From NCBI RefSeq assembly GCF_019711655.1, contig NZ_JAIGNU010000002.1, forward strand, positions 186,001-250,000: DNA of 64,000 nt, written 5' to 3'. This DNA is from Qipengyuania mesophila. Lineage in GTDB: Bacteria; Pseudomonadota; Alphaproteobacteria; Sphingomonadales; Sphingomonadaceae. The notes under the pieces were generated by a model that worked only from the letters and a program-made list of their open reading frames with translations, made no database searches and was not told where the DNA came from. Shown one piece after another: positions 30,034 through 33,600 of the stretch (the stretch's first letter is position 1; each line of letters starts with the position of its first letter). The translations under genes and the position numbers were made by a program.

Positions 30034-31014
30034 TTACGAGGCGGTTCCATCCACCGTGGTATCCTTCGAGGCAAGCACCTCGGAAAGCCAGACCTCGAGG
30101 TCGGTAACGCTGCGTTCGGGCGCCTCCTCCATCGGGATATGGCCGATGCCCGGATAGCTGGCGAGCGTCGCATTGGGCAGCTGGGCCATGTACCAGCGCG
30201 CCGCGTCGAACGGGATCAGCGCATCCTCCTCGCCCCACATGACCAGCGTCGGCACGTGGACCTTGGCAACGGCTTCGGCGGCGAAGCTCTTGCGCGGCGT
30301 CGAGAAACGCTTGCGCGTCGCCGCGCGATTGCCCGGGTAACGCGCCAGCTCCCAATAGCGATCGACCGCCTCGGGAGTGACCACCTGCTGGTTCGAAACG
30401 CTCTGCGAGAGGCTCTTGGCGACCAGCGAGCGCGGCAGGAGCTGGCTCATGGCATCGCCGATCACGGGCGAGCCGGCGAGCCGGAAGGCCAGGTTGCCGC
30501 TCCCTTCGCGCTCGATCGGTGCACCGCCCGCATCGACCAGCACCAGCCCGTCGAGCCTCTCGGGATGGGCGATGGCGTAGCCCATGGCGATCGCCCCGCC
30601 CATCGAGTTGCCGACCAGGGTGAAGCGGCCGACATTGAGCGCATCGGTCACCGCATCGATGTCCGAAATGAAGCCGTCGAGCTCATAATTCCCGTCGGGG
30701 GCCGGCCCGGTCAGTCCGTGCCCGCGCTGGTCGTAGCGGATCACGCGATAGTCGAGCTTCAGCTCGTCGACCCACTTTTGCCAGGTGTGCAGGTCGGAAT
30801 TCGAACCGTGGAGCAGGATGATGACCGGCGCATCGCGCGGTCCCTCGTCGCGGACATGGATGCGGCGGTCGCCGTCGATCGCGAGCATCCGCGAAGGCGG
30901 GGCGCCGTATTTGGCGTACATCGCATCGGGATCGGTATCGGGTACGCGCAGCACGAAGAACGCGACCACCAGCGCGAGCAGCAGCCCGCCGAGAATGCGC
31001 CAGAGCCATTTCAC
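30034..31014 (-). CDS. membrane-anchored alpha/beta hydrolase, last gene of beta-helix/cytochrome operon
   Basis: The 326-residue protein has an N-terminal hydrophobic anchor (about 3-24), oxyanion region LLHGSNSDLHTW, nucleophile elbow VGNSMGG (S137), acid in WGEEDALIPF and His in GIGHIPMEEAP. It thus belongs to the alpha/beta hydrolase group of esterases, lactonases and dehalogenases. GTG 31014 overlaps the stop of the diheme cytochrome gene as GTGA, so it is co-translated. The anchor or uncleaved signal places it on the periplasmic side, along with the two upstream products. Substrate unknown. Confidence 0.87.
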   Translation of the reverse strand: MKWLWRILGGLLLALVVAFFVLRVPDTDPDAMYAKYGAPPSRMLAIDGDRRIHVRDEGPRDAPVIILLHGSNSDLHTWQKWVDELKLDYRVIRYDQRGHGLTGPAPDGNYELDGFISDIDAVTDALNVGRFTLVGNSMGGAIAMGYAIAHPERLDGLVLVDAGGAPIEREGSGNLAFRLAGSPVIGDAMSQLLPRSLVAKSLSQSVSNQQVVTPEAVDRYWELARYPGNRAATRKRFSTPRKSFAAEAVAKVHVPTLVMWGEEDALIPFDAARWYMAQLPNATLASYPGIGHIPMEEAPERSVTDLEVWLSEVLASKDTTVDGTAS

Positions 31015-32012
31015 GGCGCCATCTCCTCGATCCAGCGGCGGACGATGTCGAGCCCTGCCTCGTCCACCGTGGCCTTGCCGAGTTCGGGCATGGCGACACC
31101 GGGTTCGGGGCTGCCCATGCGATAGGTCAGGATCGAGCTGTCGGGCGCGCCAGGGACGATATCGAACAGGTGCCCGCCGGCCCCGCGCCCGGCCGCGACG
31201 GGGCGCTTGCCGATGCCGACGGCGTCGGGCGATTGCTGCTCCCACCTGAGGTCCAGCCCGCTGTTCGAGGCGGTCGCGCCGGGGCGATGGCAATGCGCGC
31301 AATTGACATCGAGATAGCCGCGCGCGGCGGCGGTGAGATTGGCGCTGTCGCGATGCTCCCATACGGGCAGCTGGTCCGCATCGCGGGGCATCTCGTCGAT
31401 GTGGCCTGCCTCGACCATCGCGGCTAGCCATTCGTGCGACAGGTTGCGCGCCTTGGGGCCGATGGGGACCACCGCTCCGTCGAGCCCGTGGCATTCCTTG
31501 CACTGGTTCTTGTTCGGCACGCGGTAGCTGATCGCCTCGCCGCCGGGCGTGACGACAGGGACTCGTGCGCCCGCGATCGCCAGCTGCGCGTCGGTCTGTT
31601 CCTCGTTCCACAGATAGGGCAGCGCGAGCCAGCCGTCGGCACGGTGCAGCAGAACGCGCGTTTCGACCAGGCGGCGGTCCTCGCCCTCGCCGAAAGCGAA
31701 GGTCTTGATCAGCGCGCCACCGACTGGGATGTCGAGCAGGCCCTCGCCATCGGCCGCCATGGTTGTGCCATCGGGCAGGTAGACGAACCGCAGTTTCTCC
31801 GCCCCGTCCGAATAAAGTGGCGTGTTGAGCCTGTAGGGCGTCACTCGCGCATTGGGGATTTGCGCGGCAGGATCGGCGAAGAATCCGTAGGCCGACAGCG
31901 TTCGCGGCATTCCAGGATCCATGATCGCCGCATCGGTGTCGATACGCGGCGCGGTTGCCATCGCCGCCACCGCGCTCAGCAACGCGGCTCCGAAGATGGC
32001 CTTGCGGATCAT
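31011..32012 (-). CDS. exported diheme c-type cytochrome of the SO2930/HNE_0200 type (TIGR03806-like)
   Basis: The 333-residue protein has a signal peptide (MIRKAIFGAALL ... MATAP). Two haem-c motifs are visible: CKECH (171-175) and CAHCH (238-242), with the sequence RGYLDVNCAHCHRPG around the second. The N-terminal half (LSAYGFFADP, RVTPYRLNTPLYSDGAEK, LPDGTTM) matches my memory of the conserved family that regularly pairs with a parallel beta-helix protein (TIGR03805). Function of the pair is unknown. ATG 32012 overlaps the beta-helix stop as ATGA. It probably carries electrons in the periplasm. Confidence 0.85.
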   Translation of the reverse strand: MIRKAIFGAALLSAVAAMATAPRIDTDAAIMDPGMPRTLSAYGFFADPAAQIPNARVTPYRLNTPLYSDGAEKLRFVYLPDGTTMAADGEGLLDIPVGGALIKTFAFGEGEDRRLVETRVLLHRADGWLALPYLWNEEQTDAQLAIAGARVPVVTPGGEAISYRVPNKNQCKECHGLDGAVVPIGPKARNLSHEWLAAMVEAGHIDEMPRDADQLPVWEHRDSANLTAAARGYLDVNCAHCHRPGATASNSGLDLRWEQQSPDAVGIGKRPVAAGRGAGGHLFDIVPGAPDSSILTYRMGSPEPGVAMPELGKATVDEAGLDIVRRWIEEMAP

Positions 32013-33202
32013 CCGCCGAGCCTCTCGTCGAGCGCGGAAGGTGCACCGATGCCGCTGCGATCGAATTCGCCTGCAGGTGCGGAGACCGCCAGCGGGCCGG
32101 GTTGCGCCGCGTCGAGGCCCTTGCCCTGCTCGGTCAGGTTGAGGCTCCATCCAGAGGTCCCTTCGACCGCCGAAAGGCTGCCGAGCCCGTCCCACAGGAC
32201 CGGCGGGAGTTCGCCACCGAAGGCCGCGAGGAGCATCTCGGCCCCGTCGAGCTGCGGATCGTAGCCGCCCCCGTCATAGAGGTTGTCGCCCACCACCACA
32301 TCGCGAGGAAGCGGGTTGTAGCGTTCGTCGTCGAAGCCCTGCGTATAGGCGATCACCATCACCGGGGCAGTCGGGTTCTGCGCCAGGATATTGTTCTCGA
32401 TGAGCACCTTGTCGTTGGCCATCACGAGGATGCCCGTTCCGCGCCGCACGCCCGCGACGATATTGCCCGGGGGCGCGAAATTGGGCGTGTCGTTGGCCAC
32501 AACAAGGTTATTCGCGACGATGACGTTGCCGCCGCCCATCACCGGCAGCGCGGGCAGGTCGAACACCAAGATCCCGCCGGTGTTGCGCGTGGCGACATTG
32601 TGCTCGACGAGCGCGTTGCGGCTGTTCTCGATCTCGATCCCGGCGACATTCGCCTCTGCGATAGAATTGCGCACGGTGATGTGGTTCGACTGGCCGACAT
32701 AGATGCCCGCGTCGGAGGCGCCGGTGACCTTGGCCCCGTCGACGAGGACGCCGTCGCTCTCGACCGGATAAATGCCATAGGCGCCGTTTTCGGGGTGCGG
32801 CCCGCGCGTCCAGGTCACGCGGATACGGTGGTAGACGATATTGTCCGCGCCCTTGGACTTGATCCCGTCGCCCTTGGGGTTCTCGAGCGCGAAATCGCGC
32901 AGGGTGACATTGTCGCTCGTGACCAGCAGTCCCTCGCCCGATCCGGCCTGGGTGGTGAAATCGAGCACGGTGCCCTCCATCCCTGCCCCGCGCAGCGTCA
33001 CTCCGTCTACATCGAGACTGAGCCCGTCGGTGAGCTCGTAGCGCCCCGCCGCCAGCACGATCTCGTCGCCTGGCTCGGTAAGGATCAGCGCCTCTTGCAG
33101 GGCCTCCTGCGCATTCTCGCCCGGAGCGATATCATGCGTGGCGGCAATAGCGGGCGCGGCGGTGGCGAGCAGCGCGGCGGCAAGCGTCGGTCTGATGGTC
33201 AT
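32009..33202 (-). CDS. exported parallel beta-helix repeat protein (TIGR03805-like)
   Basis: The 397-residue protein has a signal peptide ending AIAATHD. From about residue 60 it shows successive right-handed beta-helix turns (DNVTLRDFALEN, NHITVRNSIAEANVAGIEIENS, RNALVEHNVATRNTGGILVF, KVLIENNIL) of the pectate-lyase/NosD kind. It is the first gene of a three-gene operon with the diheme cytochrome and anchored hydrolase; each junction overlaps by 4 bases. Catalytic residues of pectate lyases are not evident. It may bind a polysaccharide or act as a scaffold; function unknown. Confidence 0.85.
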   Translation of the reverse strand: MTIRPTLAAALLATAAPAIAATHDIAPGENAQEALQEALILTEPGDEIVLAAGRYELTDGLSLDVDGVTLRGAGMEGTVLDFTTQAGSGEGLLVTSDNVTLRDFALENPKGDGIKSKGADNIVYHRIRVTWTRGPHPENGAYGIYPVESDGVLVDGAKVTGASDAGIYVGQSNHITVRNSIAEANVAGIEIENSRNALVEHNVATRNTGGILVFDLPALPVMGGGNVIVANNLVVANDTPNFAPPGNIVAGVRRGTGILVMANDKVLIENNILAQNPTAPVMVIAYTQGFDDERYNPLPRDVVVGDNLYDGGGYDPQLDGAEMLLAAFGGELPPVLWDGLGSLSAVEGTSGWSLNLTEQGKGLDAAQPGPLAVSAPAGEFDRSGIGAPSALDERLGG

Positions 33203-33255: not shown

Positions 33256-33600
33256 TCAGCGCTGCGAGAAGGCGCAGACAGCTGCCGAACCCGCCGCCAC
33301 TTCGAGCACTTCGGGATCGTCCACCCGGCGGACGCGCTCGAGGAACTCGGCGACGTTCAGCGGGATGTCCGCCTCGCCCTCTTCGGGTGCCAGCTTCATG
33401 AGCTTGCGGATCTGGTTCACCGACAGGCGTTCCGCCATCCGCCCGGCCATGCATTCGGCCATCGGCTGCGGCAGGCCGCGCGCGACCAATTCGGCCTGGA
33501 GCCGTTCTTCCACGCTCCCCTGCAGGCCGCCACCTACGGTCGCCCAGAGGAGCGCCCCGGCGACCGCCAGCAGGGCGAGCACGATCACAAGCCGTTTCAC
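33256..33600 (-). CDS. small anchored/exported protein of unknown function, last gene of pnt operon
   Basis: The 114-residue protein has an N-terminal hydrophobic segment (MKRLVIVLALLAVAGALLWA), anchor or signal, then a helical, acidic soluble part with two cysteines (C50 in AECMAG and C109 near the C-terminus) that could form a disulfide. GTG 33600 lies one base after the pntB stop, so it is likely co-transcribed with the transhydrogenase. I recognise no family; its position is the only clue. Confidence 0.7.
   Translation of the reverse strand: MKRLVIVLALLAVAGALLWATVGGGLQGSVEERLQAELVARGLPQPMAECMAGRMAERLSVNQIRKLMKLAPEEGEADIPLNVAEFLERVRRVDDPEVLEVAAGSAAVCAFSQR

Follow-up and report, generated by a model that had tools for sequence, protein, structure and literature searches.

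A beta-helix and cytochrome gene pair of Qipengyuania mesophila as a possible two-subunit periplasmic redox enzyme, accompanied by a lineage-specific hydrolase

Two protein families, TIGR03805 (beta-helix proteins) and TIGR03806 (cytochromes of the SO2930 family), carry NCBIfam descriptions that give no function, and open-licence PMC papers, searched by family name, locus tag and product name, yielded no study of the function of either. An earlier note on the DNA discussed here, made from its letters alone, held that the two families form two-gene pairs. We analysed such a pair in Qipengyuania mesophila, within a stretch of 64,000 nucleotides (contig NZ_JAIGNU010000002.1, positions 186,001 to 250,000; hereafter the window). 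The closest described systems include the AlgE mannuronan C-5 epimerases, whose catalytic residues we take to be Tyr149, Asp152, His154 and Asp178 in AlgE4, and the cytochrome P460/c'-beta superfamily (PF16694). The review PMC11928373 identifies Lys106/Lys70 as the lysine to which the haem of P460 is cross-linked, gives Met or Phe at this position in the c'-beta proteins of its Table 2, and states that the variant Arg44Ala formed no cross-link upon aerobic expression. Our preferred reading, held tentatively and with somewhat less than even confidence, is that the beta-helix protein and a P460-like two-haem cytochrome would constitute one exported periplasmic redox enzyme, to which the hydrolase encoded beside them would be an accessory.

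The locus comprises three genes, all on the minus strand and together spanning 30034-33202. The beta-helix gene (32009-33202, 397 amino acids, ATG start) overlaps the gene of a c-type cytochrome (31011-32012, 333 amino acids, ATG start) in the ATGA at 32009-32012, and the latter overlaps an alpha/beta hydrolase gene (30034-31014, 326 amino acids, GTG start) in the GTGA at 31011-31014, as read in the sequence. All three genes are confirmed as the earlier note had placed them, and the beta-helix protein and the cytochrome look exported, as it had proposed; the signal peptides and the apparent N-terminal anchor of the hydrolase were assigned by eye. Comparison with the two families, likewise suggested in the note, put both proteins over the curated cut-offs. 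The beta-helix protein scored 419.7 bits with TIGR03805 (cut-off 141.5), matching positions 1-314 of the 314 in the profile, and the cytochrome scored 359.1 bits with TIGR03806 (cut-off 313.3), its two CxxCH motifs lying at residues 171-175 and 238-242. This is the single TIGR03806 copy of the Q. mesophila genome.

Pairing was assessed in a draw of 398 genomes from the phylum. TIGR03806 was detected at E 0.001 in 46 of them, among which TIGR03805 was adjacent or fused in 39, large dehydrogenase-type proteins were present in three, and four gave weak matches only. Genes in loci lacking annotation were taken from a small purpose-written gene caller, and their starts are approximate. In all 39 pair loci the helix came first and on the same strand, either immediately before the cytochrome (33 loci) or in the same protein (six loci). 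Since it precedes or joins the cytochrome in every case, the arrangement is not due to chance. Beta-helix and cytochrome are an obligate pair and a functional unit, and the two-gene pairs mentioned in the earlier note are real. A re-scan of four of these six fusions gave matches to both models, three of them falling short of the TIGR03806 cut-off. In the cytochrome tree, where branches among dehydrogenase-type rows are long, the fused rows group with one unfused paralogue (support 97/92), so that one fusion and one later change suffice. Inside the fused clade lies a second TIGR03806-type cytochrome without a helix, encoded beside the fused protein (L032:7464-8465). The two parts of a fused protein are likely to touch, from which we infer a physical helix-cytochrome complex.

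The structure model of the beta-helix protein (pLDDT 92.8) shows a right-handed parallel beta-helix of AlgE type. The closest solved folds are the epimerases AlgE4 and AlgE6 (Z 33.5, 2.3-2.4 A, 293-294 residues, 20-22% identity). Since further beta-helices come next, at Z 27-30, the fold alone cannot name the helix family. In an hhalign comparison with 20 AlgE-type modules out of six genomes, 256 columns were aligned with a probability of 68%. The score of 44.0 was reached by none of 150 column-shuffled profiles (maximum 26.1), and the reversed profile gave 18.2. According to this alignment, the stretch Y142-G-I-Y145-P-V147-E (helix residues 142-148; 32759..32779, minus strand) corresponds to the AlgE motif YGFDPHE. 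AlgE4 Tyr149 is kept as Y142, D152 is replaced by Y145 and H154 by V147, and D178 aligns with Q171, the last residue of D164-A-G-I-Y168-V-G-Q171 (32690..32713, minus strand). A weaker HMMER match to AlgE4 (-1.8 bits) puts the YGIYPVE region in a different register. Conservation further pointed to an acidic cluster, E190-I-E192-N193 (32624..32635, minus strand). Each of Y142, Y145, V147, D164, Y168, Q171, E190, E192 and N193 was present in all 119 helix rows, 117 of them distinct and most of them close relatives. By alignment, the AlgE-type site is thus remodelled rather than decayed, its replacements being invariant. A working mannuronan epimerase was rejected, as three of the four catalytic positions are replaced (YGIYPVE for YGFDPHE). 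The earlier note had named a match to an epimerase active site as something that would speak against its proposal; the helix does align with such a site, and three of its four catalytic residues are lost in 119 of 119 rows.

For the cytochrome (model pLDDT 86.4), a second look with VIA-align placed only cytochromes P460 or c'-beta in the top ten rows, at Z 5.4-6.2 over model residues 25-207, with the next row at 3.8. These rows are mutually related and their Z falls in the noise range stated for the tool, and the P460 idea was therefore checked by sequence comparison. Thirty PF16694 proteins from the same genome sample served as the P460 set. A cleaner profile of residues 30-200 aligned locally with this set at a probability of 47-54%; its score of 32.8 compares with a mean of 12.4 (standard deviation 2.1, maximum 19.3) in 150 shuffles, none of which was as high, with 14.1 for the reversed profile, and with 16.7 and 10.4 for two wrong partners. 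In the profile alignment, Lys103 (codon 31704..31706, minus strand) falls on the P460 haem cross-link lysine, NsP460 Lys106, and Arg75 on NsP460 His80; through the Arg44Ala chain 8gar, the Arg75 column is that of NeP460 Arg44. Extension of the alignment at low threshold reaches a Trp and CxxCH, and it is solely there that the haem 1 site C171-K-E-C-H175 (31488..31502, minus strand), which closes the P460-like domain, meets the CxxCH of P460. Arg75, Lys103, Glu117 and Trp128 were each found in 122 of 122 TIGR03806 rows (120 distinct, mostly close relatives), while the matching columns of the PF16694 set held Lys in 20, Arg in 20 and Trp in 30 of 30 proteins. Taken at sequence level, the N-terminal haem 1 domain resembles cytochrome P460/c'-beta, the relationship being remote, and possibly Lys103 is covalently cross-linked to the haem, as predicted from its position. 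The Pfam family itself did not match the window cytochrome at E 0.01, nor did PF16694 match anything in the window genome at E 0.001. The haem 2 site, C238-A-H-C-H242 (31287..31301, minus strand), was likewise present in 122 of 122 rows, as was M308 of M308-P309 (31086..31091, minus strand). This invariant methionine behind haem 2 may be its sixth ligand, as in His/Met electron-transfer haems.

Both partners of the pair have relatives that occur in other combinations. A scan of five large TIGR03806-like proteins that lack a beta-helix showed that in all five a pyrroloquinoline quinone (PQQ) glucose/sorbosone dehydrogenase domain precedes the cytochrome domain, which therefore behaves like an electron-accepting module. 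Sugar-binding-type modules were present in four of the five, namely CBM26 (L153, L187, L188) and F5/8 type C (L186). No PQQ dehydrogenase domain was found in the two stand-alone TIGR03806-type copies scanned, the Sandaracinus protein and L032_06. Among the five dehydrogenase-type proteins and the Sandaracinus protein, Lys103 is kept in six of six, Glu117 in five and Arg75 in three, the other three having His. In L153 (3613-10086), L187 and L188, CBM26, PQQ dehydrogenase, TIGR03806-like and DUF1587/1592/1588/1595 domains are united in one very large chain, and on a Pseudoalteromonas plasmid a DUF1552 gene then follows the very large protein.

A second TIGR03805 subfamily, scoring 163-187 bits, was represented by seven rows. 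Y142, D164, Y168, E190, E192 and N193 are fixed in all seven as well, and the equivalents of Y145, V147 and Q171 are Phe, Gln and Met. Every member has one C-terminal CxxCH and an adjoining CCP/MauG relative, and a two-haem cytochrome gene is also present in five of the seven. The C-terminal cytochrome domain was recognised by Pfam in the Ruegeria protein, to which the other six align in this region. Subfamily 1 goes with TIGR03806, and subfamily 2 with a haem of its own and CCP/MauG; the two kinds of helix are therefore tied to haems by different routes. On the megaplasmid of Ruegeria pomeroyi DSS-3, the genes stand in a row of AraC regulator, c-type cytochrome, CCP/MauG, TPR protein and beta-helix/cytochrome c fusion (L152:3918-9281). 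For the TPR gene beside this helix, a blastp search (1e-6) of the genes called in L031-L150 and L209-L215 gave no match. Another TIGR03805-like helix (L215, gene 02) differs at the core, with Y142 changed to N, Y168 to W and E192 to T, and is perhaps a third helix type.

Our reading assumes that two subunits in the window, and one chain in some genomes, form a single exported redox enzyme. The substrate would be held in the AlgE-type groove around the invariant Y142, D164, Y168, E190, E192 and N193; it would most likely be carbohydrate-like, given the AlgE-type groove and the sugar dehydrogenases that stand in the helix's place in other proteins. In the P460/c'-beta-like beta-sheet domain, haem 1, possibly linked to Lys103, would either take electrons from the substrate or oxidise it. 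Haem 2, with C238xxCH242 and Met308, would then hand the electrons on to the respiratory chain, and the hydrolase might free the substrate from an ester. The pairing, the fusions, the conservation and the profile similarities exceeding shuffled controls were observed; that the two proteins associate, which way the electrons move, that haem 1 is cross-linked, what class of substrate is bound and what the hydrolase does are inferences. The earlier note had proposed that the helix acts on a substrate and the cytochrome passes electrons. This part of its proposal fits the fusions found; a general three-part system is not supported.

Genes around the pair provide some hints about the substrate. Among neighbour clusters, of which only representatives were scanned, a TonB receptor cluster occurred in eight of 40 fetched loci, mostly adjoining the pair, and an AraC regulator cluster in seven of 40. 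FadL/TodX is encoded upstream of one fused protein, and on a Novosphingobium plasmid the pair is surrounded by alcohol and aldehyde dehydrogenases, TonB receptors and a PQQ alcohol dehydrogenase. The TonB, AraC, FadL and dehydrogenase neighbours suggest outer-membrane uptake of something organic rather than any one substrate. Lipase, FadL and alcohol/aldehyde dehydrogenase neighbours in some genomes are hints that do not favour sugars, and many other scanned immediate neighbours looked unrelated.

A number of observations weigh against the two-subunit redox enzyme, beyond the noise-range Z values and the close kinship of most aligned rows. Foldseek gave no significant match for the cytochrome model, the best E being only 0.07. 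The first hhalign run, with a poorer alignment that included fused proteins, reached a probability of 20%, and forced global P460 alignments reached 3.5% and 13%. The confident core of the local alignment spans about 35 columns (residues 70-106), the remainder being aligned at low threshold only. The distal carboxylate of P460 (Glu96/Asp102) is not recovered: Glu96 lies in an alignment gap, where the invariant E117 could not be placed, and E117 is therefore merely a candidate for this role. Three of the five dehydrogenase-fused domains are among those with His for Arg75. As for the helix, the genes annotated within 6 kb of a Hymenobacter member, in an incomplete gene table, include no cytochrome, and the L215 helix is without haem; a helix can therefore do something without the cytochrome. 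Finally, the search revealed neither a substrate or activity of the pair nor a spectrum or mutant phenotype, and literature passages on Shewanella regard SO_2931 as an outer-membrane cytochrome rather than an enzyme.

Some of these points lead to a different assignment of roles, in which catalysis falls to the beta-helix itself, as a lyase, epimerase or oxidoreductase of a new kind acting at Y142, D164, Y168 and E190/E192/N193, perhaps with calcium, and both haems only carry electrons away, the part they would also play for the dehydrogenase domain of the fused relatives. The helix does occupy the chain place of the PQQ dehydrogenase domain, and the six polar residues are fixed in both subfamilies, including subfamily 2, which retains them without a TIGR03806 neighbour. 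The Hymenobacter helix points the same way, as does a TIGR03805-predicted protein that PMC3584217 lists in a Burkholderia exopolysaccharide cluster. However, an epimerase or lyase would find an electron acceptor superfluous, the His and both Asp of the AlgE site have given way to other residues, no cofactor site was recognised, and the fixed Lys103 and Arg75 of the cytochrome are not obviously needed by a mere carrier. We consider such a division of labour unlikely, though with a real chance of being correct.

The treatment of SO_2931, listed with outer-membrane cytochromes in those passages, would suit a pair that serves as an envelope electron conduit or as a c'-beta-like gas-binding cytochrome, with the helix merely as scaffold or anchor. 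In line with this, a crude pattern search of the phylum set recognised a lipobox-like start in 16 of 39 helices and in 17 of 41 cytochromes, each fusion entering both counts. On the other hand, Lys103 is invariant where the c'-beta proteins of the Table 2 cited above have Met or Phe, and a scaffold would not need six polar residues fixed across two subfamilies. A conduit or gas-binding role is in our view distinctly unlikely.

The hydrolase bears on the system envisaged in the earlier note, a three-part periplasmic machine acting on an ester or carbohydrate with the hydrolase as an integral part. It belongs to Abhydrolase_1 (E 1.5e-30), and none of the NCBIfam families was over its cut-off among the 25 listed of 39. 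Its nucleophile elbow, G135-N-S137-M-G (30598..30612, minus strand), was located in the hydrolase alignment, where S137, D264 and H292 are each conserved in 99% of 67 rows and, by their order, probably form the catalytic triad. Close to the window, linkage is strong: of the 80 nearest named loci, the best 80 of 548 confirmed relatives, 66 have the hydrolase directly downstream of the cytochrome, and in the window the two genes overlap. In the wider family, it was sought at E 1e-60 in a draw of 150 listed of 151 cytochrome-bearing genomes, found by cytochrome search only, and it was counted as adjacent when encoded on the same strand at a distance of -60 to 600 bases. It adjoined the cytochrome in 52 of the 150 and was not found there in 98. 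In the phylum set, four of 39 pair loci had it, all from the window's own family, and it was not found beside the pair in 35. A further 55 hydrolase rows (39-55% identity) lay away from the cytochrome in 54 cytochrome-bearing genomes, and 13 rows came from genomes for which no cytochrome is listed; one of these genomes (G561) does have a cytochrome outside the list.

From the low counts in family and phylum, the hydrolase is therefore an accessory, a lineage add-on. The count of hydrolases in third place that the earlier note had suggested is high among the nearest named loci and low in the family and phylum samples, so that a general three-part system is not supported. A hydrolase that defines the system as its third part was rejected on the linkage counts. 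Some observations do speak for the integral role, namely that the cytochrome tree unites the four phylum carriers in a single clade (100/99) and that, in other genomes, the surroundings of the pair include different ester-cleaving genes (a cluster with a beta-lactamase-family scanned representative in three loci, VolA/Pla-1 and GDSL lipases near the fused form in L032). Nevertheless, the pair persists without the hydrolase, and we regard a three-part machine as improbable. A NosD-like metal chaperone serving the cytochrome or another enzyme is the least credible explanation by far, and was rejected as a copper chaperone since no window-helix His, Cys or Met is conserved in at least 80% of 40 subfamily-1 rows: the helix has secondary matches to PF05048 (E 1.4e-11) and TIGR04247 (47.5 bits) and NosDFY chains occur in its structural matches (Z 28), but TIGR04247 stays far under its 300-bit cut-off, and haem cytochromes do not require a copper chaperone.

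Returning to the two-subunit redox enzyme, a bolder extension can be formulated, which we think rather unlikely to hold in full. The P460-type haem enzymes might include the SO2930 family as an unrecognised branch that works outside the nitrogen cycle. Its Lys-cross-linked haem 1 would be wired to haem 2, epimerase-fold helix and PQQ sugar dehydrogenase would be interchangeable substrate modules, and the helix might contain a protein-derived tyrosyl cofactor. Such a cofactor, made or used by the haem protein, is conceivable because a haem protein of peroxide-reactive type (P460-like or CCP/MauG) coincides with fixed tyrosines in both helix subfamilies.

Apart from the pair, Qipengyuania and Erythrobacter are the closest named relatives of the locus. 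The window also encodes a small protein (33256-33600) that has no Pfam match and is flanked by a pntB-like gene and the beta-helix gene; in 49 of the 80 named loci it occurs upstream of the cytochrome, at a distance of at most four genes. The neighbours pntAB and dgt (both named by eye) and a racemase are retained in relatives of the window and look like stable synteny. In eight loci, seven of them among the 80 named, an exported-looking TPR protein of about 500 amino acids is encoded directly upstream of the beta-helix gene on the same strand (L055:6972-8495, L082:7196-8698, L097:7184-8710, L113, L121, L145, L146 and L094, the copy in L094 being cut by the contig end).

Pairs of this kind were present in 39 of the 398 sampled genomes of the phylum, and the predicted lysine-haem cross-link, the predicted two-subunit complex and the remodelled epimerase site provide testable handles on them. 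If the genus carrying a fused protein is Shewanella, as appears probable, a molecular hypothesis for SO_2931 is also at hand. What is new, judging by controlled profile comparisons, is the putative P460-like haem domain together with the apparent remodelling of an epimerase site; the PQQ dehydrogenase fusions of the cytochrome domain and the second helix subfamily with its own haem are new as well. The earlier note had overlooked the P460 likeness and the link of the cytochrome domain to PQQ dehydrogenases.

In comparison with known systems, the window locus agrees with the TIGR03805/TIGR03806 two-gene pairs in that both its proteins exceed the curated cut-offs and the gene order is that of all 39 pair loci; it differs by the overlapping alpha/beta hydrolase gene, added in relatives only. 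The helix shares with the AlgE mannuronan C-5 epimerases and AlgE-type epimerase/lyases the best solved fold, the 256-column profile alignment and the catalytic Tyr149 position, whereas the positions of D152, H154 and D178 are Tyr, Val and Gln. Like the cytochrome P460/c'-beta superfamily, to which its top ten structural rows belong, the cytochrome has profile similarity over controls and keeps the Arg44 and Lys70 columns; unlike it, the window protein is missed by Pfam and has a second haem domain added, and the similarity is remote. The PQQ glucose/sorbosone dehydrogenase fusions contain the same kind of diheme domain, with Lys103 kept in five of five, but their partner is the PQQ dehydrogenase in place of the window's beta-helix. 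Finally, subfamily 2, exemplified by the Ruegeria pomeroyi DSS-3 megaplasmid, shares the core residues of the helix and the presence of haem-protein neighbours, whereas its helix has a one-haem domain of its own and its neighbour is CCP/MauG, not TIGR03806.

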